DNA of 64,000 nt from Candidatus Treponema merdequi (GTDB taxonomy: Bacteria > Spirochaetota > Spirochaetia > Treponematales > Treponemataceae): the NCBI GenBank assembly GCA_018064525.1, contig JAGHVB010000040.1, forward strand, positions 1 through 64,000, written 5' to 3'. Of the stretch, positions 6,040 through 39,639 are shown piece after piece. A model generated the notes under the pieces. That model had not been told where the DNA came from and made no database searches. It saw only the letters and a program-made list of their open reading frames with translations. Both the position numbers and the translations under genes were made by a program. Position 1 is the stretch's first letter. Each line of letters starts with the position of its first letter.

Positions 6040-6071
6040 GGAAATGCCTGATTCTAAGGCGGTTAGCTCCC
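6040..6071 (+). repeat. Leader repeat with anti-SD, locus 1 left arm
   Basis: This stretch begins GGAAATGCC and ends AGCTCCC. It matches the reverse complement of 6262-6292 over most of its length, so the two form inverted repeats around the peptide gene. The terminal AGCTCCC can pair with the peptide's SD region GGGAGGCT (6105-6112), and the hairpin CAGC-TTAT-GCTG lies between them. Confidence 0.6.
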
Positions 6072-6117
6072 AAACTCAATCAGCTTATGCTGAAATTTGA
6101 TTATGGGAGGCTTGCTT

Positions 6118-6216
6118 ATGACTTTTGACAGATTTATTGCAGTAGTGGCTTGCGTTGCTACTGTTATCTGCACTGTTATAGCAGTACTCTCCTACCTGTA
6201 CGATAGAAAAGAGTAA
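6118..6216 (+). CDS. Small hydrophobic peptide, putative type I toxin (locus 1)
   Basis: A 32-codon gene with a strong SD (GGGAGG, 7 bases before ATG). The peptide starts MTFDRF, has one hydrophobic segment (IAVVACVATVICTVIAVL) and ends SYLYDRKE: a single membrane span with a charged tail, as in Fst, Ldr and holin-like type I toxins. The SD can be masked by the leader repeat. A convergent antisense RNA with its own promoter overlaps the 3' part of the transcript. Locus 2 at 26.3 kb encodes another 32-residue peptide with the same layout and the same 16 bases around its stop codon. The toxin role is inference. Confidence 0.65.
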   Translation: MTFDRFIAVVACVATVICTVIAVLSYLYDRKE

Positions 6217-6294
6217 AAAATAAAGCCGCCCTGTTCATCCTCACGGCGGCTTTTGTCAAATGTGGAGATAACCGACAGAGTCGGGCATTTCCTT
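6214..6294 (-). ncRNA. Putative antisense (antitoxin) RNA of locus 1
   Basis: A minus-strand transcript of about 80 bases is predicted from the promoter at 6301-6329 to the T-run after the hairpin at 6222-6254. Its 5' end (6292-6262) repeats the leader of the peptide mRNA and contains CTCC, which can pair with the peptide's GGGAGG. Its 3' end is antisense to the end of the peptide gene. No expression data are available; this rests on promoter, terminator and symmetry. Confidence 0.55.
6222..6254. terminator. Shared hairpin terminator of locus 1
   Basis: The AAAGCCGCC / GGCGGCTTT hairpin has TTTT on the plus side and a longer T-rich tract on the minus side. Both convergent RNAs of locus 1 should end here. 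Confidence 0.75.
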
Positions 6295-22590: not shown

Positions 22591-23937
22591 TCAGGAGATG
22601 ACTTTCAGCATTTTCATGAGGGTTGGTTTTTCAATCAGGTCGATAGGACGGCCGTCGATGTATTTGTGAGCCTCTTCTGAGAAAGTTCCGGAAGTTATGC
22701 AGAAACCTTTATCACATTTTGTATCTTTAATTTTTGAGTGAAAGTCTCTGATGTAAAGTTCACCGATTGAACCAGTATTTCTGAAGAATCTGAATAATTC
22801 TTTGTCTTCCCATTTTGCATTTTCAACTTCGCATAAAATTTCAATTGAATCTGTTATGACTGCAACATCGACAATTTTAACGAATGATTTTGAATGGAAA
22901 ATTTTTACAAGGTTTCTACAGAGTGCAACAAAGTCACTTGTACCAGAAGTAAGATAAATCTGTAAATTTGAATTCTGATTTAATTCTTTGTATCTTGCGA
23001 TTAACTGGTTTACATCTTTGTAAACAGGTACAATCGACTGAATTTTATTTAAGCACTGCAATCCGGATGAGATTTTGTTTATTCTGAAATAGCAGCCTGC
23101 AAGCCGGTAATTTAATTCAAGAAAAATTTCCTGTGGAATATCCGTAAGGTGAAGTCCGATTTCAAAGTCCTGTGCTGCTTTATCAAGCTGCTGCATTTTT
23201 GTATGAATGATTCCCGCAGAAAGACTTGATTGAGCGCCGAATTTCGGATCCGGACGAAGGTGCATGAAAATTTTAAGAGCTTTGTCACTAACTCCGCATT
23301 CCTGCATTGCATCTGCCATTGCAAAAAGTGATTCCTTGTCTTCTGGATTTTCATCCAGTGCACGACGCAGATATTGAACAGATTCTTTAAAGTGATGAGC
23401 TTTATAGCATGCCATTCCTATCGGCTGGTAAATTCCCTGAGTTTCTGGATTTAATGTGAGAGCTTTTTTTAAAAGTGGAATTGATTTATCAAATTCACCA
23501 TTTTTATATAAAGCCTGTCCGAGATAAAAGTTAGCTTCGTAACTGTCTGGATTAACTTTGAGAGCTGTTAAAAGAAGGGGAGCAGCTTCCTGTGGTTTCT
23601 GAAGTTTGACAAGGCAGACACCGTATTTAAGATTTATGTCACCGATGTCAATTTCTGTATGTCTTGAAGAAAGTTCTGCAAGAGTTTCGTAAAGTGGAAG
23701 TGCTTTATCCCATACATGTTCTGAATAATATAAATCTGCAAGAGGTGTTAAAGCCTGAACATTCTGCGGATTGTGAGCTAATTTTTTTGTACAGTCGCGA
23801 ATGATTGAAGCGCGGTTTTTTGTTTTTGGTCCAGATGAACCTGAAGTGCTTTTTCTTGATGAAAGTAATACGAGTAAACTTGTGAATAAGAGAATAGCAA
23901 TTACTGCGATAATTACTGGAATAATTGTGCCGCCCAT
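22591..23937 (-). CDS. Membrane-anchored TPR protein with C-terminal restriction-endonuclease-like domain
   Basis: A 448-residue protein. It has an N-terminal membrane segment (IIPVIIAVIAILLFTSLLVLL), then TPR repeats (about residues 45-300; PDSYEANFYLGQALYKNGEF is one). The C-terminal domain (about 330-448) resembles the Mrr/PD-(D/E)XK-like restriction endonuclease fold: VAVITDSIEILCEVENAKW (candidate E-x-K-like strand) and GFCITSGTFSEEAHKYI with LIEKPTLMKML at the end. A clear E-x-K or Q-x-K pair is missing, so it may not cut DNA. I infer a scaffold role at the membrane. The SD AAGGTGAG precedes the start. Confidence 0.7.
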   Translation of the reverse strand: MGGTIIPVIIAVIAILLFTSLLVLLSSRKSTSGSSGPKTKNRASIIRDCTKKLAHNPQNVQALTPLADLYYSEHVWDKALPLYETLAELSSRHTEIDIGDINLKYGVCLVKLQKPQEAAPLLLTALKVNPDSYEANFYLGQALYKNGEFDKSIPLLKKALTLNPETQGIYQPIGMACYKAHHFKESVQYLRRALDENPEDKESLFAMADAMQECGVSDKALKIFMHLRPDPKFGAQSSLSAGIIHTKMQQLDKAAQDFEIGLHLTDIPQEIFLELNYRLAGCYFRINKISSGLQCLNKIQSIVPVYKDVNQLIARYKELNQNSNLQIYLTSGTSDFVALCRNLVKIFHSKSFVKIVDVAVITDSIEILCEVENAKWEDKELFRFFRNTGSIGELYIRDFHSKIKDTKCDKGFCITSGTFSEEAHKYIDGRPIDLIEKPTLMKMLKVIS

Positions 23938-25862: not shown

Positions 25863-26108
25863 ATGAACTTTAGTTACTTGGTACTTGAAAAATATGACAA
25901 CCCTTATATTGGAACAGAATTTAAACTTGTTCCATTTTCAGATTTTCAAATAGAACCAAAAGGAAAGCACCTGGCAGGTGATGAAAATGATTCAGAGATA
26001 AGAAATAAATTTGAAAGCGAATTTCAAAAAACATTAAAAATAGGTGTTTTAAAAAAGAATTATCCTGAAGAAAAGAATAAATCTTTGAAGGTTGCTGATG
26101 AAATTTAA
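25863..26108 (+). CDS. Short hypothetical protein, possible gene remnant
   Basis: An 81-residue frame starting MNFSYLVLEKYDNPYIGTEF, with no SD and no family I recognise. It is hydrophilic, with a lysine-rich C-terminus. On the other strand at 25645-25851 an in-frame extension of the Lrp gene reads WKKVEEEALKVAKVFGKPVEYF, which resembles the end of an Xre-type HTH domain. Both may be remnants of a lost gene. The promoter of the locus 2 antisense RNA begins 17 bases after the stop codon. Confidence 0.3.
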   Translation: MNFSYLVLEKYDNPYIGTEFKLVPFSDFQIEPKGKHLAGDENDSEIRNKFESEFQKTLKIGVLKKNYPEEKNKSLKVADEI

Positions 26109-26124
26109 AGTATATTATTTTAAA

Positions 26125-26153
26125 TTGACACTATAGGTATTCAGTGGTATAGT
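26125..26153 (+). promoter_or_regulatory. Promoter of the locus 2 antisense RNA
   Basis: TTGACA (26125-26130) and TATAGT (26148-26153) with exactly 17 bases between. The predicted start is about 26160. Confidence 0.8.
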
Positions 26154-26159
26154 AAAAAT

Positions 26160-26250
26160 AGAGAGATGACCATTGTATTGGTCGTTCTCCCGGATTTTGG
26201 TTAAACACCGCCATTCGTTTGAAGAACAGGAAATGGCGGTGTTATTTTTT
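26160..26250 (+). ncRNA. Putative antisense (antitoxin) RNA of locus 2
   Basis: Predicted plus-strand transcript of about 90 bases from the TTGACA/TATAGT promoter to the T-run after the hairpin at 26204-26243. Its 5' part (26162-26193) repeats the leader of the peptide mRNA on the other strand and includes TTCTCCC, which can pair with the peptide's GAGGAGG. Its 3' part is antisense to the end of the peptide gene. Same design as locus 1; no expression data. Confidence 0.6.
26204..26243. terminator. Shared hairpin terminator of locus 2
   Basis: AACACCGCCATT / AATGGCGGTGTT, a perfect 12-bp stem. The plus side has the T-run ATTTTTT; the minus (peptide) side has only a weak T tract, so the peptide mRNA may read through into the 26162-26193 repeat. 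Confidence 0.8.
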
Positions 26251-26347
26251 ACTCTTTATTCTTATTTTTGATATAAGAGAGTAGTGCTTTAATTGTATTA
26301 AGAACAGCAGTAATGAAATTCATTATTGCTGTGATAAGTGCAATCAT
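26249..26347 (-). CDS. Small hydrophobic peptide, putative type I toxin (locus 2)
   Basis: A 32-codon gene with a very strong SD (GGAGGAG, 6 bases before ATG). The peptide starts MIALITAIMNF, is hydrophobic for about 23 residues, and ends LLSYIKNKNKE: one membrane span with a basic tail. The locus 1 peptide has the same length, the same LSY near its C-terminus, the same KE end, and the identical 16 bases AAAGAGTAAAAAATAA around its stop codon. The leader's TCTTCTCC can pair fully with GGAGGAGA of the SD region, with the hairpin CGGC-TTAT-GCCG between. The type I toxin role is inferred from layout. Confidence 0.65.
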   Translation of the reverse strand: MIALITAIMNFITAVLNTIKALLSYIKNKNKE

Positions 26348-26394
26348 AGCATCTCCTCCTCTGTACAAAATTCGGCATAAGCCGTAGAGTTTGC

Positions 26395-26428
26395 CGGGAG
26401 AAGAAAACCGCCTGCAATGGTCATCTCT
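26395..26428 (-). repeat. Leader repeat with anti-SD, locus 2 right arm
   Basis: On the minus strand this begins AGAGATGACCATTG and ends TTCTCCCGG. It matches the 5' part of the antisense RNA (26162-26193) except in its middle, so the peptide gene is enclosed by inverted repeats as in locus 1. Confidence 0.6.
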
Positions 26429-26434
26429 GCAGAA

Positions 26435-26463
26435 AGTATATATTAAATAGTTTGGCTTGTCAA
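26435..26463 (-). promoter_or_regulatory. Promoter of the locus 2 peptide gene
   Basis: On the minus strand, TTGACA (26463-26458) and TATACT (26440-26435) with 17 bases between. The transcript should start near 26428, at the first base of the leader repeat. Confidence 0.8.
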
Positions 26464-26614
26464 ATTATTAGTTTTTACTATACAAATTTATTTTAAATAT
26501 CCTTTATTTAATTTTTCTGTTTTTGTAAATTTCTCTAAATTTAATTCCCCTTGCCGAATTTCGAAATCTTTATTATTTTAATTAGTAATACATTTTATAG
26601 AGGTAAATGGAAAA

Positions 26615-28779: not shown

Positions 28780-31700
28780 ATGAAAATGAATGAAGAATTT
28801 TGCGGACAGAAGAATGGATATTCTCGATCAATTACATTGAGAAATAAGTTAATTCCAATTGGAAAAACTGAAGAAAATATCAATCAGTTTTTGGAAAATG
28901 ATATTGAACGTTCAATGGCATATCCGGAAGTAAAAAAACTTATCGATGATATACATCGTTCTTTTATTCAAGATACCTTATCTAAAGTAACGTTTCCATG
29001 GGAACCATTATTTGATGAATTTGAATTATATCAGAACGAAAAAGATAAATTAAAAAAAGCATCCCATAAAAAAGAATTGGAAAAATTACAAACTGTAGCT
29101 CGAAAAAGAATAGTTGAAGCTTTCAAAAAAAATCCTGATTTTGACAAACTCTTTAAGGATGGATTATTTAAAGAATTATTACCAGCTTTGATAAAAAACT
29201 CTACAGATAAAGAAATAACTGACAAGAAAGAAGCTGTAGAAGTATTTAATCGGTTTAGCACATATTTTACTGGATTCCATCAAAACCGCCAAAATATGTA
29301 CAGCGAAGATCCTAAATCTACCGCAATTAGTTACAGAATCGTCAATGAAAACTTTCCAAAGTTTTTTGCAAATGTAAAACTCTTTAATTATTTGCAAGAA
29401 AATTTCCCACAAATAATTAAAGATACTGAAACTTCATTAAAATTACATCTTAATGGTAAAACACTTTCTCAAATCTTCAATATTGAAGCATTTAATGATG
29501 TTCTGACCCAGACAGGAATTGATTTTTACAATACAGTAATTGGTGGAATTTCAGGTGAAGCTGGTTCAGAAAAAGTACAGGGATTAAATGAAAAAATTAA
29601 TTTAGCAAAACAGCAGCTTCCTAAAGAAGAACAGAATAAACTTCGTGGAAAAATGACTGTTTTGTATAAACAAATTCTCAGTGATAGAGAAACTTCATCA
29701 TTTATTCCAGTTGGTTTTGAAAACAATAACGAAGTATATGATACTGTAAAACAGTTTAATGATGAAACATATTCTAATGTTGTTGAAAAAATTAAGGAAC
29801 TTATTAATATATGTTCTGATTATGATATCAGTCAGATATTTGTTCCTGCAAAAGAACTTACTGCATTTTCTTTATCTATTTTTGGGAACTGGTCAATTTT
29901 GTCAGAAGGATTATTTTTATTAGAAAAAGATAAATCTACAAAAAATCTTACTGAAAAACAAATTGAAGCTATAAACAAAGAAATAGAAAAAAAAGATTAT
30001 TCGCTGGTAGAATTACAAACGGCTTATGAAAGATGGTGTACAGAAAATACTATTCCTGTAACAAAAACTGTCAGAAACTTTTTTGCAATAAAACCATTAA
30101 AAAATCAAAAAGATTCACCTGATAAAACTGAATCTGACATTCTCCAAAACATAAAATCTAAATATGCAATCATCGATTTTGAAAATCAACATGATTTACA
30201 GCAGGAAAAAGATGCTGCAACTCCAATAAAAGATTATTTGGATGAAGTTCAGGAATTATATCATCATTTAAAACTTGTAGACTATCGTGGCGAAGAACAA
30301 AAAGATACAAATTTCTATTCAAAATTGGATGAAGTTTTACAAAAGCTTTCTGAAATTGTTCCTCTTTACAATAAAGTTAGAAACTATGTTACTAAAAAGC
30401 CAGGGGAAGTTAAGAAAGTTAAGTTGAATTTTGACTGTAGTTCTTTCTTAAATGGATGGGGTACTGAGTTTGGAACAAAGGATACGCATCTATTTATTAT
30501 CGATGGAAAATACTATCTAGGTATAATTGATAAAAAATTGTCGAAAGATGAAATTACTGGTCTTCAAAATACTGTAAATAATTCTTGTAAACATATTATT
30601 TATGATTTTCAGAAACCAGATAATAAAAACACTCCTAGATTATTTATCCGCTCAAAAGGAGAATCCTATGCTCCGGCTGTTTCAAAATATAATCTCCCTA
30701 TAGAATCAATAATTGATATATATGATAAAGGGATGTTCAAAACAGAATATCGAGATAAGAATCCTCAAGAATATAGAAAAGCATTAATACAAATAATCGA
30801 GTATTTTAAACTAGGTTTTTCTAAACATGAATCATACAAAAATTATGATTTTTGTTGGAAAGAAGCGGATGAATATAATGATATTGCAGAGTTTTATTCT
30901 GATGTTATTAAATCGTGTTATAAACTTGACTTTGAAAATATAAATTATGAAAAACTTCTTTCGCTTGTAGATTCCGGTAAACTTTTCCTATTCCAAATCT
31001 ACAACAAAGACTTTGCGGAAAAATCATCTGGAAAGAAAAATCTTCACACTTTGTATTGGGAAAACTTATTCAGCGAAGAAAATCTCAAAGATATCTGTTT
31101 AAAGTTGAATGGAGAAGCAGAACTTTTCTGGCGTAAAGCAAGTTTAGATTCAGAAAAAGTAACTCATCACAAAAAAGGTTCAATCCTTGTAAATCGTACA
31201 ACAAAAGATGGAAAATCTATTCCAGAAGAAATTTATCAGGAAATTTATCAATACAAAAATAAGATGATTTCTTCTGTTTCTGATGAAACAAAAAAACTCT
31301 TGGATTCAGGCACTGTTGTTTTCAAAGAAGCAACACATGAAATTACAAAAGATAAACATTTTACAGAAGACACTTATCTTTTCCATTGTCCAATTACAAT
31401 GAACTTCAAAGCACCAGAAATTACTGGCAGAAAATTCAACGACAAAGTTCTTGAATATCTTTCAAAAAATCCAGACGTAAAAATTATTGGACTTGACCGT
31501 GGTGAACGTCATTTGCTTTACCTTTCACTTATAAATCAAAAAGGTGAAATTGAAATGCAAAAAACTCTTAATCTTGTTGAACAGGTTCGCAATGATAAAA
31601 CAGTTTCTGTAAACTATCAGGAAAAACTTGTTCAAAAAGAAGGTGACCGTGACAAAGCCCGCAAAAACTGGCAGACAATTGGAAACATCAAGGAACTTAA

Positions 31701-32682
31701 GGAAGGATATCTTTCAAATATTGTTCATGAAATTGCAAAACTTATGGTAGAAAATAATGCCATAGTTGTAATGGAAGATTTGAATTTTGGTTTTAAGCGT
31801 GGTCGTTTTGCTGTTGAACGTCAGGTTTATCAGAAGTTTGAAAACATGCTCATCGAAAAACTTAATTATCTTGTTTTCAAAGATAAAGGTGTTACAGAAC
31901 CTGGTGGAGTTTTGAATGCATATCAGCTTACAGATAAATCAGCAAATGTGAGCGATGTATATAAACAATGTGGATGGCTTTTCTACATTCCAGCAGCATA
32001 CACTTCAAAGATTGATCCAAAAACAGGATTTTCAAATCTGTTCATAACAAAAGGTCTTACAAATGTTGAAAAGAAAAAAGAGTTCTTTGATAAATTTGAT
32101 TCAATACGTTATGACAACAAAGAAGATTGTTTTGTATTCGGATTTGATTATTCAAAACTTTGTGACAATGCAGATTACAATAAAAAGTGGGAAGTTTATA
32201 CAAAAGGTGAAAGACTTGTTTATAGTAAGGCAGAACGTACAAATATTACTGTAAATCCTACGGCTGAACTTAAAAAGGTTTTTGAAGAATTCAATATCAA
32301 TTGGAAAAGTGAAGACAATTTCATTGATTCGCTTCAAACTATTCAAGCTGAAAAAACAAATATAAAATTCTTCGATACTCTTTTACGTTCTTTCAATGCT
32401 ACTCTTCAAATGCGTAATTCAATTCCAAATTCAGAAATTGATTACCTTATTTCTCCAGTAAAAGCAGATGACGGAACATTCTTTGACAGTCGTGAACAAT
32501 TAGCACTTGGAAAGGAAGCTAAACTCCCAATTGATGCAGATGCAAACGGAGCTTATCACATTGCGTTAAAAGGGCTTTACCTTTTACAGAATGATTTTAA
32601 TCGCAATGAAAAAGGTGTTATCCAGAATATTTCCAACGCCGACTGGTTCCGTTTTGTACAGGAAAAAGAATACCAAAAATAG
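28780..32682 (+). CDS. cas12a: Cas12a (Cpf1), type V-A CRISPR effector nuclease
   Basis: Single-protein effector of type V-A CRISPR-Cas: it processes its own pre-crRNA and, guided by the crRNA, cuts DNA next to a T-rich PAM. The protein has 1300 residues, as in the family. RuvC residues: D906 (IGLDRGERH), E999 (VVMEDLNFGFKRGR), D1252/D1254 (DADANGAYHIALKG). The Nuc-domain arginine lies in LQMRNS (R1212). The RNA-processing WED region contains ITKDKHFTEDTYLFHCPIT (near 853-870). All catalytic parts are present, so the enzyme should be active. Start: ATG at 28780 with SD AAAGGAG. The 5' leader contains a repeat-like hairpin. It leads an operon with bro, cas4, cas1 and cas2. Confidence 0.98.
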   Translation: MKMNEEFCGQKNGYSRSITLRNKLIPIGKTEENINQFLENDIERSMAYPEVKKLIDDIHRSFIQDTLSKVTFPWEPLFDEFELYQNEKDKLKKASHKKELEKLQTVARKRIVEAFKKNPDFDKLFKDGLFKELLPALIKNSTDKEITDKKEAVEVFNRFSTYFTGFHQNRQNMYSEDPKSTAISYRIVNENFPKFFANVKLFNYLQENFPQIIKDTETSLKLHLNGKTLSQIFNIEAFNDVLTQTGIDFYNTVIGGISGEAGSEKVQGLNEKINLAKQQLPKEEQNKLRGKMTVLYKQILSDRETSSFIPVGFENNNEVYDTVKQFNDETYSNVVEKIKELINICSDYDISQIFVPAKELTAFSLSIFGNWSILSEGLFLLEKDKSTKNLTEKQIEAINKEIEKKDYSLVELQTAYERWCTENTIPVTKTVRNFFAIKPLKNQKDSPDKTESDILQNIKSKYAIIDFENQHDLQQEKDAATPIKDYLDEVQELYHHLKLVDYRGEEQKDTNFYSKLDEVLQKLSEIVPLYNKVRNYVTKKPGEVKKVKLNFDCSSFLNGWGTEFGTKDTHLFIIDGKYYLGIIDKKLSKDEITGLQNTVNNSCKHIIYDFQKPDNKNTPRLFIRSKGESYAPAVSKYNLPIESIIDIYDKGMFKTEYRDKNPQEYRKALIQIIEYFKLGFSKHESYKNYDFCWKEADEYNDIAEFYSDVIKSCYKLDFENINYEKLLSLVDSGKLFLFQIYNKDFAEKSSGKKNLHTLYWENLFSEENLKDICLKLNGEAELFWRKASLDSEKVTHHKKGSILVNRTTKDGKSIPEEIYQEIYQYKNKMISSVSDETKKLLDSGTVVFKEATHEITKDKHFTEDTYLFHCPITMNFKAPEITGRKFNDKVLEYLSKNPDVKIIGLDRGERHLLYLSLINQKGEIEMQKTLNLVEQVRNDKTVSVNYQEKLVQKEGDRDKARKNWQTIGNIKELKEGYLSNIVHEIAKLMVENNAIVVMEDLNFGFKRGRFAVERQVYQKFENMLIEKLNYLVFKDKGVTEPGGVLNAYQLTDKSANVSDVYKQCGWLFYIPAAYTSKIDPKTGFSNLFITKGLTNVEKKKEFFDKFDSIRYDNKEDCFVFGFDYSKLCDNADYNKKWEVYTKGERLVYSKAERTNITVNPTAELKKVFEEFNINWKSEDNFIDSLQTIQAEKTNIKFFDTLLRSFNATLQMRNSIPNSEIDYLISPVKADDGTFFDSREQLALGKEAKLPIDADANGAYHIALKGLYLLQNDFNRNEKGVIQNISNADWFRFVQEKEYQK

Positions 32683-32691
32683 GAGTTGCCA

Positions 32692-33552
32692 ATGTCAGAA
32701 AGTACTCAGATAAAACTTTTTCAAGATAAAAAGGTTCGTTCCGTTTGGAATGAGGAAGAACAACAATGGTATTTTTCGGTTATTGATGTTGTTGAGGTTC
32801 TTACAGAATCCCCAACACCTCGACAATATTGGGGAAAAATAAAAGACAGAGAATTCAAGCAACTTCAGTTGTCCCCAATTTGGGTACAACTGAAACTTCC
32901 AGCCACTGACGGAAAGATGTATAACACCGATTGTGCCAATGTAAAATCACTTTTCCGCATAATCCAGTCAATTCCTTCTCCAAAAGCAGAACCTTTCAAA
33001 CAATGGCTCGCTCAAGTTGGCTACGAGCGGATGCAGGAAATTGAAAATCCAGAGCTTGCCCAGGAACGAATGAAGGAACTTTACGAAAAAAAAGGTTATC
33101 CAAAAGACTGGATTGATAAGCGGCTTCGTGGAATGGCCATCCGTCAGAATCTCACAGATGAATGGAAAGAACGCGGAATTACAAAGGAAAAAGATTACGC
33201 AATTCTAACCGCGGAAATTTCAAAAGCAACTTTCGGACTTACTCCATCTGAATACAAGGAAATAAAAGGTCTTACAAAGAAAAATCAAAATCTTCGTGAC
33301 CACATGACCGACCTTGAATTAATCTTTACAATGCTCGGCGAACGTGTAACAACTGAAATTTCTCAAAATGAAAAACCGGAAACTTTTGAAGAAAACGAAA
33401 ATGTTGCACGACGTGGTGGAAAAGTTGCAGGAAATGCACGCAAAGAAACAGAAAAGGAAATAGGACATACAATTATTTCATCGGAAAATTATCTGGATAT
33501 AAACAAAGGTGATAGTGATGGAACTTTACCTGAAAATAACTTATCTGAATGA
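32692..33552 (+). CDS. Bro-N / DinD-like protein inside the cas operon
   Basis: A 286-residue protein of the Bro-N (phage antirepressor, BRO) family as found in bacterial chromosomes. The Bro-N domain spans about residues 5-105 (VRSVWNEEEQQWYFSVIDVV, SIPSPKAEPFKQWLAQVG). The C-terminal half resembles E. coli DinD (KKNQNLRDHMTDLELIFTML, ARRGGKVAGNARKETEKEIG). DinD inhibits RecA strand exchange; for this branch no function is known. The ATG at 32692 has GGAG 7 bases upstream; the frame extends two codons further to a TTG without SD. It follows cas12a by nine bases and overlaps cas4 by 35 bases, so it is translated with the cas genes. It is not a standard type V-A component. Confidence 0.85.
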   Translation: MSESTQIKLFQDKKVRSVWNEEEQQWYFSVIDVVEVLTESPTPRQYWGKIKDREFKQLQLSPIWVQLKLPATDGKMYNTDCANVKSLFRIIQSIPSPKAEPFKQWLAQVGYERMQEIENPELAQERMKELYEKKGYPKDWIDKRLRGMAIRQNLTDEWKERGITKEKDYAILTAEISKATFGLTPSEYKEIKGLTKKNQNLRDHMTDLELIFTMLGERVTTEISQNEKPETFEENENVARRGGKVAGNARKETEKEIGHTIISSENYLDINKGDSDGTLPENNLSE

Positions 33553-34099
33553 TTTTATCTTCTGTCCGCTTTCCATTTATTATCATCAGCTTTATTCAGA
33601 TTTAGCAGAACGGCTTTACTATGACGATGCTCAATTAAATGGTAAAGCCGCACATTCTGCTATTGATGAACAACGATATTCAACGCATAAAAATATCCTT
33701 CAAGGAATAGATGTATTTTCTGAAGAATATAAACTGTGTGGGAAAATCGACTTATTTGATACAGAAAAAGGATTGCTTACTGAGCGGAAAAAACATATTG
33801 AAACAATTTACGACGGTTATGTTTTTCAACTGTATGCGCAATGTCTTTGTCTTCGTGAGATGGGTTACAAAGTAAACAAAATCAGATTCTATTCTTCTGA
33901 TGACAACAAAGTTTATGATTATCCACTACCAGAAGATAATCCAGAAATGTTTGAAAAATTTATAAATACAAATGAGCAGATGCAGAATTTTAATGTTGAT
34001 TCATACGAACCAAAATCACCGGAAAAATGTGCACACTGCATTTATAACGATTTTTGTGACAGACCGTTAGCACCTAAAGCTTACAACGGTGGATTTTAA
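33518..34099 (+). CDS. cas4: Cas4 adaptation nuclease
   Basis: A 193-residue RecB-like iron-sulfur exonuclease that trims prespacers and helps select PAM-flanked ones. Visible features: the lone N-terminal cysteine (DFIFCPLSIYYH, C16) and the C-terminal trio in KCAHCIYNDFCDRP for a [4Fe-4S] cluster. RecB motifs are the histidine in GKAAHSAID, GKIDLFD (motif II), ERKKH (motif III, E-x-K) and QLYAQCLCL (QxxxY-like). The ATG at 33518 is chosen (AAAGGTGA upstream); the frame opens nine bases earlier with GTG. Its first 35 bases lie inside the bro gene. Confidence 0.93.
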   Translation: MELYLKITYLNDFIFCPLSIYYHQLYSDLAERLYYDDAQLNGKAAHSAIDEQRYSTHKNILQGIDVFSEEYKLCGKIDLFDTEKGLLTERKKHIETIYDGYVFQLYAQCLCLREMGYKVNKIRFYSSDDNKVYDYPLPEDNPEMFEKFINTNEQMQNFNVDSYEPKSPEKCAHCIYNDFCDRPLAPKAYNGGF

Positions 34100-34120
34100 G
34101 GTGGGAGAAGGAGTAATCAG

Positions 34121-35098
34121 ATGATGAGTACCCGCGATTTTGAGTGTAAACAAATTGCTTTTGTGTATACCGAAAAAGGGGAAAAAATCAGTTTTAAGAA
34201 TGACAATTTAATTATTACTGATTCTGAGGGGAAAATAAAACATCAGTCAACTTGTTACAGACTTTTTTTGCTTTTTATTTGTGGAGATGCGTGTCTTACA
34301 AGTGGAATTTTGGAGCGTTCAAAAAAGTTTGGATTCAATATTGTTTTTATGAGTTCAAATCTTCGTATAAAAACAATTCTTCCGTCAAAAGCAGAAGGAA
34401 ATGTTTTACTGAGGAAAAGACAATATGCATTAGAAAAAACTGATATTGCGGCTCATGTAATTGCAAATAAAATTCACAATCAGACATTTTTGTTGAAAAA
34501 GAAAAGAAATAAAACGGAGGAAGAAAAACAGAATATTAAAAAACTGGAACAATTTGAAAAAGATGTTTTAAAACCAGATTTAGCTGTTCAGGAAATTATG
34601 GGAATTGAAGGAGTAAGTGCAAAAATTTACTTTGGTGATTTATTCAAAAATCATAACTGGACAGCAAGAAGACCTCGTGTAAAACATGATATTACAAATT
34701 GTCTTATGGATGTTGGCTACACAATTCTATTTAATTTAATAAATGCCCTTTTGGAAATGTATGGCTTTGATGTTTATGTAGGAATTTTACATACACAGTT
34801 TTTTCACAGAAAATCTTTAGTTTGCGATTTGGAAGAACCTTTCAGACCAATTATTGATGCAGCTTTAATTAAAGCAATGAATTTAGGTCAGATAAATGAA
34901 AAGGATTTCTGGAAAAATCAGGAACAATATATTTTGCCATGGAAAAATTCTGCACCGTATGTAGAGATTTTTATAAAAGCTTTGATGGAATATAAAAATG
35001 AAATTTTTATTTATTTGCAGTCGTTTTATCGTGCTTTTATGAGAGATAAATCTGCCTGTGATTTTCCAAATTTTTATATGGATGAGGAGGATGAATAA
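34121..35098 (+). CDS. cas1: Cas1 integrase
   Basis: Metal-dependent integrase that inserts new spacers together with Cas2. The 325-residue protein has the active-site glutamate in GIEGVSAKIYF (E163), the histidine in GILHTQFFHRKS (H224) and the acidic cluster DLEEPFRP (from residue 236). An N-terminal beta domain precedes the alpha-helical catalytic domain. SD GAAGGAG lies before the first of two consecutive ATGs. The stop codon overlaps the cas2 start codon (TAATG). Confidence 0.96.
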   Translation: MMSTRDFECKQIAFVYTEKGEKISFKNDNLIITDSEGKIKHQSTCYRLFLLFICGDACLTSGILERSKKFGFNIVFMSSNLRIKTILPSKAEGNVLLRKRQYALEKTDIAAHVIANKIHNQTFLLKKKRNKTEEEKQNIKKLEQFEKDVLKPDLAVQEIMGIEGVSAKIYFGDLFKNHNWTARRPRVKHDITNCLMDVGYTILFNLINALLEMYGFDVYVGILHTQFFHRKSLVCDLEEPFRPIIDAALIKAMNLGQINEKDFWKNQEQYILPWKNSAPYVEIFIKALMEYKNEIFIYLQSFYRAFMRDKSACDFPNFYMDEEDE

Positions 35099-35373
35099 TG
35101 CTTCTTGTAAGTTATGATATTGCAAATGATAAAGTTAGAACTAAATTTGCAAAATTTCTTTCAAAGTTTGGATTCAGATTGCAATATTCTGTTTTTGAAA
35201 TTCATAACAGTGAAACAGTTTTAGGGAATATTCAAAATGAAATTGAAAATATTTATATGAAGACCTTTACAGAAGAAGATTCTGTGATTATATTTAACTT
35301 ATCAGCAACTTGTACAAAAACCTGTTACGGTTATGCCAAAAATGAAGAAACCGATGTTTTTGTAATAACATAA
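35098..35373 (+). CDS. cas2: Cas2
   Basis: Small dimeric ferredoxin-fold protein that holds the two Cas1 dimers in the integration complex. It has 91 residues, the usual size, with the N-terminal strand and aspartate LLVSYDIANDKVRTKF and the later FRLQYSVFEIHN. SD GAGGAGGA overlaps the end of cas1. A degenerate copy of the CRISPR repeat starts at the base after the stop codon. Confidence 0.95.
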   Translation: MLLVSYDIANDKVRTKFAKFLSKFGFRLQYSVFEIHNSETVLGNIQNEIENIYMKTFTEEDSVIIFNLSATCTKTCYGYAKNEETDVFVIT

Positions 35374-35404
35374 GTTTGAAACAAAAAAATCCTACTGTTG
35401 TAGG
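35374..35404 (+). repeat. Solitary degenerate CRISPR repeat after cas2
   Basis: This 31-base copy opens GTTTGAAAC (array repeat: GTTTCAAAC) and ends with the stem-loop CCTAC-TGTT-GTAGG, the same loop with one compensating change in the closing pair. The AT-rich middle is about five bases shorter. It lies about 120 bases from the first array repeat and is followed by a unique A-rich stretch. It could be processed into a crRNA-like RNA or be a fossil array end. Confidence 0.65.
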
Positions 35405-35525
35405 TAAAAATTGCAAACCCCTGGTCTTACTGTAAAAATTGGAGTAAAAAATGAAGAAAAATGCCAGTTTTAACGTAATATTTGCGAAATACAGTAACAA
35501 AAAGAACTGTTTAGCAACGACAGGG
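35405..35525 (+). promoter_or_regulatory. CRISPR leader
   Basis: An AT-rich stretch of 121 bases between the solitary repeat and the first array repeat. Its boundaries carry matching inverted sequences: AAACCCCTG at 35414-35422 and CAGGGGTTT at 35521-35529, the latter crossing into repeat 1. A pre-crRNA promoter is expected here; TACAGT near 35491 is a possible -10 box but I see no certain -35. A 28-codon frame with GGAG upstream (35451-35537) ends inside repeat 1 and is probably chance. Confidence 0.6.
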
Positions 35526-38500
35526 GTTTCAAACTAGATTTAAATTTCTACTGTTGTAGATCGAGTGCGTTACCATTCCAGCAGAAAGGTTTCAAACTAG
35601 ATTTAAATTTCTACTGTTGTAGATATAATGGTTGGGATACATCAGGCGAATGTTTCAAACTAGATTTAAATTTCTACTGTTGTAGATTGTACAAGAAGAA
35701 ACATAATGCGATTGGTTTCAAACTAGATTTAAATTTCTACTGTTGTAGATCCACGAAGTGTTCCGACTGGGGTTTGGTGTTTCAAACTAGATTTAAATTT
35801 CTACTGTTGTAGATCATACGCTTTAAAAACATTATCCATTCTGTTTCAAACTAGATTTAAATTTCTACTGTTGTAGATTGTTGACGATAACCAAGAAAAA
35901 ACCTGTTTCAAACTAGATTTAAATTTCTACTGTTGTAGATATTAGCTGGAAAGCAGGCTGGCGGAGAGTTTCAAACTAGATTTAAATTTCTACTGTTGTA
36001 GATTCATTGTAAACTTGCGATTAATGCCCTGGTTTCAAACTAGATTTAAATTTCTACTGTTGTAGATATAACGGTTGGGATACTTCTGGAGAAGTTTCAA
36101 ACTAGATTTAAATTTCTACTGTTGTAGATTTAAGCGGTGTTTCCCGTGCTATGAAGTTTCAAACTAGATTTAAATTTCTACTGTTGTAGATAAAATATTC
36201 CTAGTACTTATTCTAATTGTTTCAAACTAGATTTAAATTTCTACTGTTGTAGATAAGATAAAAAAACGGTTATTCATAAGTTTCAAACTAGATTTAAATT
36301 TCTACTGTTGTAGATAAAGCACAAGGACGTAGATATAAGTATTGTTTCAAACTAGATTTAAATTTCTACTGTTGTAGATTTGGAAAGGTAGCGAGGAAGT
36401 AAAATAGTTTCAAACTAGATTTAAATTTCTACTGTTGTAGATACTTACAAGAGAAAACATAATGCAATTGGTTTCAAACTAGATTTAAATTTCTACTGTT
36501 GTAGATTCAATGGTATGAAGACCATATGTATGGTTTCAAACTAGATTTAAATTTCTACTGTTGTAGATGTAGAATGATTCATTGCATACACCGTGTTTCA
36601 AACTAGATTTAAATTTCTACTGTTGTAGATTTTATAAGGCCGTGTTTTCTGATTATTGTTTCAAACTAGATTTAAATTTCTACTGTTGTAGATCGAACGA
36701 GTAAAAACACTATGCAAGGTTTCAAACTAGATTTAAATTTCTACTGTTGTAGATAGTCATACCATCCAACTCATCTACAAGTTTCAAACTAGATTTAAAT
36801 TTCTACTGTTGTAGATTGGGAATCTGGTTTTCTTTGAAAAAAAGTTTCAAACTAGATTTAAATTTCTACTGTTGTAGATCAGTATGACGGCTTTTTACAA
36901 CTCTATTGTTTCAAACTAGATTTAAATTTCTACTGTTGTAGATAAAACAGCTATTTTGGGTTTTAAAAAGTTTCAAACTAGATTTAAATTTCTACTGTTG
37001 TAGATACCCTGTTCATTGCTTGTCATACCAAATGTTTCAAACTAGATTTAAATTTCTACTGTTGTAGATATTGAGATGTATACTGAACTTAAAACTAGTT
37101 TCAAACTAGATTTAAATTTCTACTGTTGTAGATACTTCATCATCAATTTTTTGCATTTGTGTTTCAAACTAGATTTAAATTTCTACTGTTGTAGATTTGA
37201 GATGGTTGACAAGCTTTTGTCTGTTTCAAACTAGATTTAAATTTCTACTGTTGTAGATAAAAAATGTTTGATGATGCTGTTGATGGTTTCAAACTAGATT
37301 TAAATTTCTACTGTTGTAGATAAAATTAATTCGTCCATTACCATTCCTGTTTCAAACTAGATTTAAATTTCTACTGTTGTAGATACCTGTTTTGTCTGTC
37401 CTGGCTGAACTGTTTCAAACTAGATTTAAATTTCTACTGTTGTAGATATTTGTGACGGACGGACAATTAGTAGAGTTTCAAACTAGATTTAAATTTCTAC
37501 TGTTGTAGATTCGAAAATCTTCCGGAAGAAAGAATGTTTCAAACTAGATTTAAATTTCTACTGTTGTAGATCAGAAACAGAAATTACAGAATGGAGGTTT
37601 CAAACTAGATTTAAATTTCTACTGTTGTAGATACGAACCCAAACATGACCGTTGAAAAGTTTCAAACTAGATTTAAATTTCTACTGTTGTAGATTTCTTG
37701 AAGCGTCCGCCCTGCAAAGTGGTTTCAAACTAGATTTAAATTTCTACTGTTGTAGATCTTTACTGGACTGATGATTCAAGAGGAGTTTCAAACTAGATTT
37801 AAATTTCTACTGTTGTAGATATGATTTGTTAGAGTTCAATGAAAAATGTTTCAAACTAGATTTAAATTTCTACTGTTGTAGATATAAGCTGGTCTACAAA
37901 GCTGAAAAGGTTTCAAACTAGATTTAAATTTCTACTGTTGTAGATGTATTTTCGTTTTGCTTCACGGCATTGTTTCAAACTAGATTTAAATTTCTACTGT
38001 TGTAGATTAGTTAGCATTCAATATGTTGGCTCGTTTCAAACTAGATTTAAATTTCTACTGTTGTAGATAGTATCCATTTTTTCAGTAACCATATAGTTTC
38101 AAACTAGATTTAAATTTCTACTGTTGTAGATAAGACTGATGTTCTGAATTCCGCTGAAGTTTCAAACTAGATTTAAATTTCTACTGTTGTAGATACTTAT
38201 TATTAAGAGTAATATGAAAATGTTTCAAACTAGATTTAAATTTCTACTGTTGTAGATACGGGTGTGATCATTTTATTTCGGTAAGTTTCAAACTAGATTT
38301 AAATTTCTACTGTTGTAGATAAGGTGTATATCACCCTATTGTTTTAGTTTCAAACTAGATTTAAATTTCTACTGTTGTAGATTTTGACTGTTCCTGCGCC
38401 GCTTTAGATGTTTCAAACTAGATTTAAATTTCTACTGTTGTAGATATGAACGGCAAAAACACCGACCCCGATGTTTCAAACTAGATTTAAATTTCTACTG

Positions 38501-39639
38501 TTGTAGATATTCCGTTGATTGTCTGTTCCGGAAATGTTTCAAACTAGATTTAAATTTCTACTGTTGTAGATTTGAAAAGCGCGCGAACAGAACAATGTTT
38601 CAAACTAGATTTAAATTTCTACTGTTGTAGATGTACTTCTTCTCCCCACCATTTCCAAAGTTTCAAACTAGATTTAAATTTCTACTGTTGTAGATCTGAG
38701 ATGTATAACGAATTGAAAATCGTTTCAAACTAGATTTAAATTTCTACTGTTGTAGATCAGAAGAATGTTTCGAGTGTATTAGAGTTTCAAACTAGATTTA
38801 AATTTCTACTGTTGTAGATTCAGTATGGCACATTTCAATTCCAATAGTTTCAAACTAGATTTAAATTTCTACTGTTGTAGATCTGTACCGATGTTATTTC
38901 CTGAATAGGGTTTCAAACTAGATTTAAATTTCTACTGTTGTAGATTTTTAAACGGATTTTCAATCTCCGAAGTAGTTTCAAATTAGATTTAAATTTCTAC
39001 TGTTGTAGATCTAAGCATCAGCGCATAAATGCGAAGAGTTTCAAACTAGATTTAAATTTCTACTGTTGTAGATTTGGCTTGAACCTTACGGGCGCAAGGT
39101 TTCAAACTAGATTTAAATTTCTACTGTTGTAGATGGATTCCGAGCGGTCAAGCCCGATACTGTTTCAAACTAGATTTAAATTTCTACTGTTGTAGATTTT
39201 CTGCATATTCTGTATGCGAATGTCGTTTCAAACTAGATTTAAATTTCTACTGTTGTAGATGCAAGTGAAATTATAAAGGATTTTGAAAGTTTCAAACTAG
39301 ATTTAAATTTCTACTGTTGTAGATCGTGTGTAGTAGTTCCCGTTCGAGGTGGTTTCAAACTAGATTTAAATTTCTACTGTTGTAGATGTAAGTTTTACAA
39401 TCCAATAAATCTGTGTTTCAAACTAGATTTAAATTTCTACTGTTGTAGATATTCTTAATTCTTTCAGCGTGCTGTAGTTTCAAACTAGATTTAAATTTCT
39501 ACTGTTGTAGATTCATATATCAGGATAGTACCAACTTTATGTTTCAAACTAAATTTAAATTTCTACTGTTGTAGATGCCATATTAATGACAAGAAGGGAA
39601 ATAGTTTCAAACTAGATTTAAATTTCTACTGTTTTAATT
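35526..39639 (+). CRISPR. Type V-A CRISPR array, 66 repeats and 65 spacers
   Basis: The repeat is 36 bases, opens GTTTCAAACTAG and ends TTTCTACTGTTGTAGAT, the Cas12a-type 3' stem-loop. By hand count there are 66 repeats and 65 spacers of 25-29 bases, mostly 27. Repeats are nearly identical. The exceptions are all at the far end: repeat 56 (38975, one C to T), repeat 65 (39541, one G to A) and repeat 66 (39604), which loses the canonical last six bases. That places the growing end next to cas2. Three spacer pairs are similar to each other (see findings). Confidence 0.99.

Follow-up and report, generated by a model that had tools for sequence, protein, structure and literature searches.

Locus 2 of Candidatus Treponema merdequi, situated at 26120-26465 of the window (the whole stretch of 64,000 nucleotides that was analysed), consists of a minus-strand gene for a hydrophobic peptide and, facing it on the plus strand, a gene for an antisense RNA, arranged around a perfect 12-bp hairpin. 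Judged from its sequence, the locus is quite probably a type I toxin-antitoxin module. A more specific reading, to which we give even chances, is that it belongs to an undescribed multicopy type I family of spirochaetes, in which DNA of the antisense 5' hairpin would also serve as terminator and 3' lock of the toxin mRNA, and in which the peptide would be exchangeable between subfamilies. Sequence and comparison of family members show selection on the ORF, both promoters, compensatory changes in the hairpins, coupling of the two 5' domains and codon restriction in the LSY motif.

Organization of locus 2

The original prediction comprised a 32-codon peptide on the minus strand, its Shine-Dalgarno sequence (SD), two promoters and the 12-bp hairpin, all of which were found where it had placed them. 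Elements of the locus are listed below, with the evidence for each in brackets.

26125-26153, plus strand: antisense RNA promoter TTGACA-17-TATAGT, 11/12 sigma-70, extended -10 (TGG) (promoter scan)
26154-26162, minus strand: T-rich tail past T2, proposed mRNA 3' end (family mean T fraction 0.68)
26160-26250, plus strand: antisense RNA of about 90 nt, putative antitoxin (promoter, hairpin and terminator kept in the family)
26163-26190, plus strand: antisense RNA 5' hairpin GAGATGACCATTG..TTGGTCGTTCTCC; its minus-strand reading is T2, the proposed 3'-end hairpin of the mRNA (sequence, family hairpin)
26204-26243, both directions: T1, perfect 12-bp stem (26204-26215 with 26232-26243) with 16-nt loop (sequence)
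26242-26257, minus strand: 16-mer AAAGAGTAAAAAATAA (Lys-Glu-stop codons and complement of the antisense terminator U-run)
26249-26347, minus strand: ORF of the 32-aa peptide MIALITAIMNFITAVLNTIKALLSYIKNKNKE, putative toxin (ORF, family dN/dS, hydrophobicity)
26276-26281, minus strand: CTCTCT, Leu-Ser codons of the LSY motif; predicted second, in-frame anti-SD (codon restriction, 69/69 CTY)
26353-26361, minus strand: Shine-Dalgarno sequence GAGGAGGAG upstream of the peptide ORF (sequence)
26373-26384, minus strand: leader hairpin CGGC-TTAT-GCCG, with strong covariation among family members (in helix 6, pairing in 98.4% of cells and double changes at all five pairs)
26396-26403, minus strand: upstream anti-SD CTTCTCCC (fold and pair counts)
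26408-26412, minus strand: GGCGG, nearly invariant across the family; possible partners are CCGCC of the terminator hairpin or, where present, an upstream GCC (family counts)
26415-26427, minus strand: mRNA 5' arm GAGATGACCATTG, shared with the 5' arm of the antisense RNA, so that the DNA has an inverted repeat (sequence, arm comparison)
26435-26463, minus strand: mRNA promoter TTGACA-17-TATACT, 11/12 sigma-70 (promoter scan)

T1 is the terminator of the antisense RNA, with a U-run at 26245-26250; in the mRNA direction its U tail is weak. The mRNA leader is 80 nt long. Sites with at least 11/12 agreement with the sigma-70 consensus number ten in the whole 64 kb. Two of them facing each other across 340 bp are remarkable, although by themselves they prove nothing.

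Locus 2 belongs to a family

Two paralogues were found in the same genome. One is locus 1 of the window:

6040-6292, plus strand: leader (6040-6117) and ORF MTFDRFIAVVACVATVICTVIAVLSYLYDRKE (6118-6216); the antisense 5' arm begins at 6292 on the minus strand, and the 16-mer is at 6208-6223 (plus strand)

The other is located on another contig (C72:30286-30368) and encodes the peptide MTCSEIIALVTCVATLIMTVIALLSYYKNNKE. Homology of loci 1 and 2 had been predicted, with peptide length, the LSY and KE ends and 16 identical bases around the stop codon offered as proof. Homology is borne out by family comparison. The 16-mer is indeed present at both loci and confined to the family, and its genome-wide search, which had been proposed as a check, returned exactly three occurrences, each in a family member (locus 1, locus 2 and the third copy). 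As proof, however, it is weak when taken alone, since a 16-mer pair with at most two mismatches arose in 16 of 100 shuffles.

The leader, rather than the peptide, is the best search handle for the family; that its 80 nt are conserved more strongly than the peptide had escaped the original prediction. The first covariance model was built from six leaders and, at a threshold of E<=0.1 in the genus scan, matched 58 of 200 genus genomes (30/85 among good genomes). Matches of the refined model fell in 46/394 genomes of the order, some of which belong to further genera of the same taxonomic family and carry as many as nine copies each. Two intact copies were detected in one genome of another spirochaete family (G535). 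A weak match without ORF in a third family (G218) was taken as chance. Among 144 model matches, 121 have an SD followed by an ORF of 22-50 aa, and a recognisable facing promoter accompanies 110. Some copies are in tandem (e.g. L079, L085, L092, L093, L098, L112). Wherever assemblies with matches to the antisense motif bear names, these are Treponema, Spirochaetales or Spirochaetia, many of them of animal gut or faecal origin. No Rfam family matched within the locus at gathering score.

The expectation of several members in this genome is thus upheld by the three copies, to which about 120 members in other genomes are added. Peptide, both promoters and terminator, named beforehand as the conserved units, hold as such across further copies, and the aligned copies conserve the peptide as well as both promoters. 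We give practically no credence to the idea that locus 2 is a spurious ORF lying by chance between unrelated promoters. The weakness of the 16-mer would suit it, whereas the family of more than 100 loci, covariance-model E-values reaching 1e-23, selection and covariation all argue against it.

Repeats of other kinds were observed at some loci. In several genomes (loci L092, L106, L121 and L124), a palindromic repeat (CAAGG..TTAAG..CCTTGACC) is inserted into the antisense 5' hairpin or immediately ahead of it; as far as the position of the insertion indicates, those antitoxins may be altered or inactivated. An unrelated dispersed repeat with GCTTATGGCGAATTTTG is present in at least seven copies in the single-contig genus genome G049 (loci L010, L030, L032-L035).

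The peptide is under purifying selection

Comparison of 145 pairs gave a median dN/dS of 0.26, with 99% of pairs below 1, which indicates that the reading frame is translated and selected. Family peptides are mostly 26-35 aa long and have one hydrophobic segment and a tail that is usually short, polar and often basic; proline occurs in none of 75 peptides. The locus 2 peptide has a single hydrophobic segment as well (Kyte-Doolittle 19-aa maximum 1.96). Peptides of loci 1 and 2 matched nothing in Pfam and NCBIfam scans, and among the results of these profile scans no AapA-type family was present. A sister subfamily (MTIYE..), which shares the same RNA chassis, matches Pfam Hol_Tox PF16935, the family of TxpA/BsrE-type putative toxins. 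Its best score is 26.1 bits at a cut-off of 23.3; only this subfamily reaches the gathering score, and loci 1 and 2 remain below it. Fst peptides carry the motif PxxxG, which was found in 0/75 family peptides.

The RNA pair could be real and the peptide no toxin; a membrane enzyme or a stress response would then be tuned by this small membrane protein, with the antisense RNA exerting ordinary expression control. Such a role would agree with the lack of any toxin family matching peptides of the locus 2 type. We consider it improbable, because multicopy tandem and dispersed layout, patchy presence, locus-biased antisense pairing and masking of the SD in several layers are features that type I toxins typically show, and because sister peptides on the same chassis fall in Hol_Tox.

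The leader and the LSY codons may mask the Shine-Dalgarno sequence

In the leader structure, CUCCC pairs with the SD around a GCUUAUGC-type hairpin. In 98 sequences, 88% of cells are paired and 20 of 23 pairs are changed on both sides, counts which come from an alignment fitted to the model and which collapse in slid controls. From a leader alignment based on sequence only, RNAalifold recovered the SD/anti-SD core and little else. Minimum free energy folds of mRNAs ended at T1 contain the SD-CUCCC pairing in 65/80 loci. When the closed form, ended at T2, is folded, the SD pairs with the LSY codons in 31/75 loci and with the upstream anti-SD in 27/75.

The LSY motif shared by both loci had already been noticed at the peptide level. 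It is indeed conserved, and its codons are restricted: Leu is encoded by CTC or CTT in 69/69 cases, CTC accounting for 42/69 as against 4/220 elsewhere in the ORFs, and the Ser codon is nearly always TCN, mostly TCT or TCC. This restriction implies that LSY is kept at least partly as RNA. According to the folds, the SD appears to be masked in the primary transcript, by CUCCC upstream or by the LSY codons. Its predicted accessibility is low in both forms (0.08 when ended at T1, 0.15 when ended at T2).

Coupling of GGCGG with the terminator is weak (own 1.45 vs permuted 1.34, sd 0.03). A conserved leader ORF starting from GGAA-AUG was also considered and dropped, since start codon and frame vary (GUG, AGA, frame shifts).

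mRNA and antisense RNA begin alike

In the antisense 5' hairpin, 91% of cells are paired, compared with 29-63% in slid controls, and five of ten pairs show two-sided changes; these counts rest on a structure that we specified, and RNAalifold recovered two pairs from an antisense alignment based on sequence only. The first 13-15 bases of both RNAs, whose likeness the original prediction did not mention, are near-identical and drift together across loci. The shared arm is GGAAAUGCC in most loci, and elsewhere GGAAAGACC, GAGAUGACC or GGAAAUAACC is found on both sides. Similarity between the arms is 8.75 for own pairs and 4.25 for permuted ones (sd 0.24).

Since the genes converge and their RNAs start identically, the starts form inverted repeats in DNA, and the two ends of an mRNA extending past T1 are complementary to each other. 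These complementary ends of a longer mRNA, too, had gone unseen. On the mRNA strand, the T fraction is 0.68 after T2 and 0.46 after T1, and it is 0.31 at the mirrored site, where the mRNA starts; by its composition, the T-rich stretch past T2 resembles the tail of a terminator. For mRNAs taken to end after T2, folding predicts closure of the 5' end with the 3' end in 72/75 loci. Pairing of the 5' domain with T2 yields -36.8 kcal/mol for own and -28.0 kcal/mol for permuted combinations (z -18.9), where the permutations leave sequence relatedness in. When paralogues of a single genome are compared, the 5' domain pairs best with the T2 of its own locus in 28 of 55 cases. For the three paralogues studied here, predicted pairing of locus 2 amounts to -32.1 kcal/mol with its own partner as against -21.2 and -17.6 kcal/mol, so that locus 2 is predicted to be insulated from the other two.

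The inverted repeats at both transcript starts might also bound a mobile, MITE-like element with peptide and promoters as passengers, and it would fit that copies are dispersed as well as in tandem and that the closest relative lacks common synteny. We regard such an element as very improbable: the repeats do not include the conserved promoters, purifying selection acts on the peptide, RNA helices covary, and the family was not found on the viral contigs examined. Carriage by phages was rejected as a separate possibility, as viral contigs matching the antisense-motif pattern show no leader match.

An alternative that deserves to be taken seriously, while we favour it in a minority of our judgement, retains the toxin-antitoxin module and lets the mRNA end at T1, in which case the 5'-3' lock cannot form. 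The arms would then be alike due to pairing in trans between the antisense 3' arm and the mRNA 5' arm (cf. direct repeats of Fst/par), or due to gene conversion between the inverted repeats. T1 is a perfect hairpin, evidently in use by the antisense RNA, and pairing of the mRNA 5' arm with the antisense 3' arm is stronger for own than for permuted partners (-8.07 vs -7.19 kcal/mol, z -5.5). On the other hand, read in the mRNA direction, the U tail after T1 is poor while the tail at T2 is T-rich, and own-locus complementarity is far stronger for T2. Differences between the arms, moreover, are biased towards G-U-compatible ones (63 to 13, or 32 to 12 when position 10 is left out), a bias that favours RNA pairing and that gene conversion would not produce.

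Two further pairings were tried and rejected as locus-specific. Between the antisense 5' arm and the anti-SD arm of the mRNA there was no signal (z 0.1); between the antisense 3' arm and the SD, pairing is possible via CUCC and lacks locus specificity (z 1.0).

Genomic neighbourhood

Downstream of locus 2 lie htpG and a Cas12a locus; the original prediction had placed it next to htpG and a CRISPR locus. The type V-A CRISPR locus spans 28780-39520 of the window, with Cas12a at 28780-32682, cas4 at 33509-34099, cas1 at 34121-35098 and an array of 63 exact repeats with 62 different spacers. The adjacency is real, and we take it as incidental, because the closest relative of locus 2 (L208 in genome G007, peptide MIELITAIMNFITAVLNTIKALLSYIKRKNKE) sits elsewhere, with no htpG neighbour, and because no spacer matches. 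Control of the toxin by a spacer or a degenerate repeat was rejected, as the best spacer match covers at most 15/20 bases.

Several other features were noted in this region. A BRO-N domain protein is encoded between cas12a and cas4 (32686-33552); its 46%-identical relative adjoins family locus L158 in another genome. An isolated degenerate repeat-like hairpin CCTACTGTTGTAGG, with no match to the toxin loci, is located between the cas genes and the array (35380-35420). A short ORF (25869-26108) between an Lrp-family gene and locus 2 has the appearance of a gene remnant. A possible defence gene at 22591-23937, upstream of the CRISPR locus, encodes a TPR protein that has an Mrr-type nuclease domain at its C terminus.

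Proposed mechanism and its meaning

For the preferred reading, a type I module whose mRNA extends to T2, we propose the following course, in which we infer where the transcripts end and in which order they fold, as well as 3' trimming, toxicity and the action of the antitoxin. Transcription from the minus-strand promoter would give an mRNA some 265 nt long, which codes for the putative toxin, a membrane peptide of 32 aa with a single helix. The facing promoter would yield an antisense RNA of ~90 nt, the putative antitoxin, which would end at the toxin stop codon and be complementary to the mRNA 3' end. Translation would be blocked in layers. Once the ORF is transcribed, the SD could pair with CUYUC, the Leu-Ser codons of LSY. 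After the mRNA has reached T2, which is complementary to the antisense 5' hairpin, its two ends would pair with each other and close the molecule. Trimming at the 3' end would open the closed mRNA and expose it to capture by the antisense RNA. Capture probably starts from the loops of the terminator hairpins, which are complementary, and RNase III would follow. When the antisense RNA is lost or run down, the peptide would enter the membrane.

A paper of 2025 states that Proteobacteria, Firmicutes and Tenericutes were the only groups with known type I systems, and adds Cyanobacteria to them (PMC12390103). Our literature search, which covered few subscription papers, found no type I system reported for spirochaetes. 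If our reading is true, the family extends type I systems to Spirochaetota, with up to nine copies per genome. It would make available more than 75 natural sequences with AapA-like design (upstream anti-SD, anti-SD within the ORF, 5'-3' lock) for testing that design, and the covariance model offers a direct route to annotation of a gene class missed by ordinary gene callers.

Comparison with known systems

In hok/sok, the 3' end of the mRNA folds back on the 5' end, a metastable 5' hairpin occurs and activation proceeds by 3' trimming. Predictions for the locus-2 family include the same fold-back, a possible metastable 5' hairpin and presumed activation by 3' trimming. Unlike in hok/sok, no mok-like overlapping frame was established, the peptide is shorter and unmatched to Hok, and the antisense RNA is placed at the 3' end instead of the leader.

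AapA3 mRNA is masked by an upstream anti-SD and by an anti-SD at a Ser codon inside the ORF before 5'-3' closure takes place (PMC6733600). The locus-2 family is similar to aapA/IsoA of Helicobacter and Campylobacter (PMC6733600) in long-distance 5'-3' closure of the mRNA (here predicted, provided that the mRNA ends after T2), in an upstream anti-SD with a second one within the ORF at a conserved Ser codon (here by prediction and codon restriction), and in several chromosomal copies. It differs in phylum, and no relationship of the peptides was found in the profile scans; its anti-SD within the ORF consists of Leu-Ser codons near the ORF 3' end, and its antisense RNA covers the 3' end of the mRNA as far as the stop codon.

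Like in txpA/RatA and bsrE/SR5 of Bacillus (PMC6562991), a short mRNA for a membrane peptide is matched at its 3' end by a complementary antisense RNA, the SD is masked by a few GC pairs, and one sister subfamily is at or above the Hol_Tox cut-off. By sequence, the antisense RNA of locus 2 begins some 85 nt past the stop codon and runs back to it; the overlap of about 90 nt is slightly below the 100-140 bp of txpA/RatA and bsrE/SR5 (PMC6562991). In contrast to these systems, loci 1 and 2 are not Hol_Tox, and both RNAs of the locus-2 family carry 5' domains that form inverted repeats.

Peptide size, converging RNAs, a common central terminator and an extra sequence relation between the RNAs are shared with RNA I-RNA II of Fst/par from Enterococcus pAD1 (PMC4147584). 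There, direct repeats allow the RNAs to pair and to block the ribosome (PMC4147584), whereas here inverted repeats make the RNAs alike. With no PxxxG and no direct repeats in its sequences, the locus-2 family is not assigned to Fst, nor is locus 2 to Hol_Tox. By analogy, the logic of the mRNA resembles that of AapA/IsoA and hok/sok, and the layout of the locus resembles that of txpA/RatA and Fst/par.
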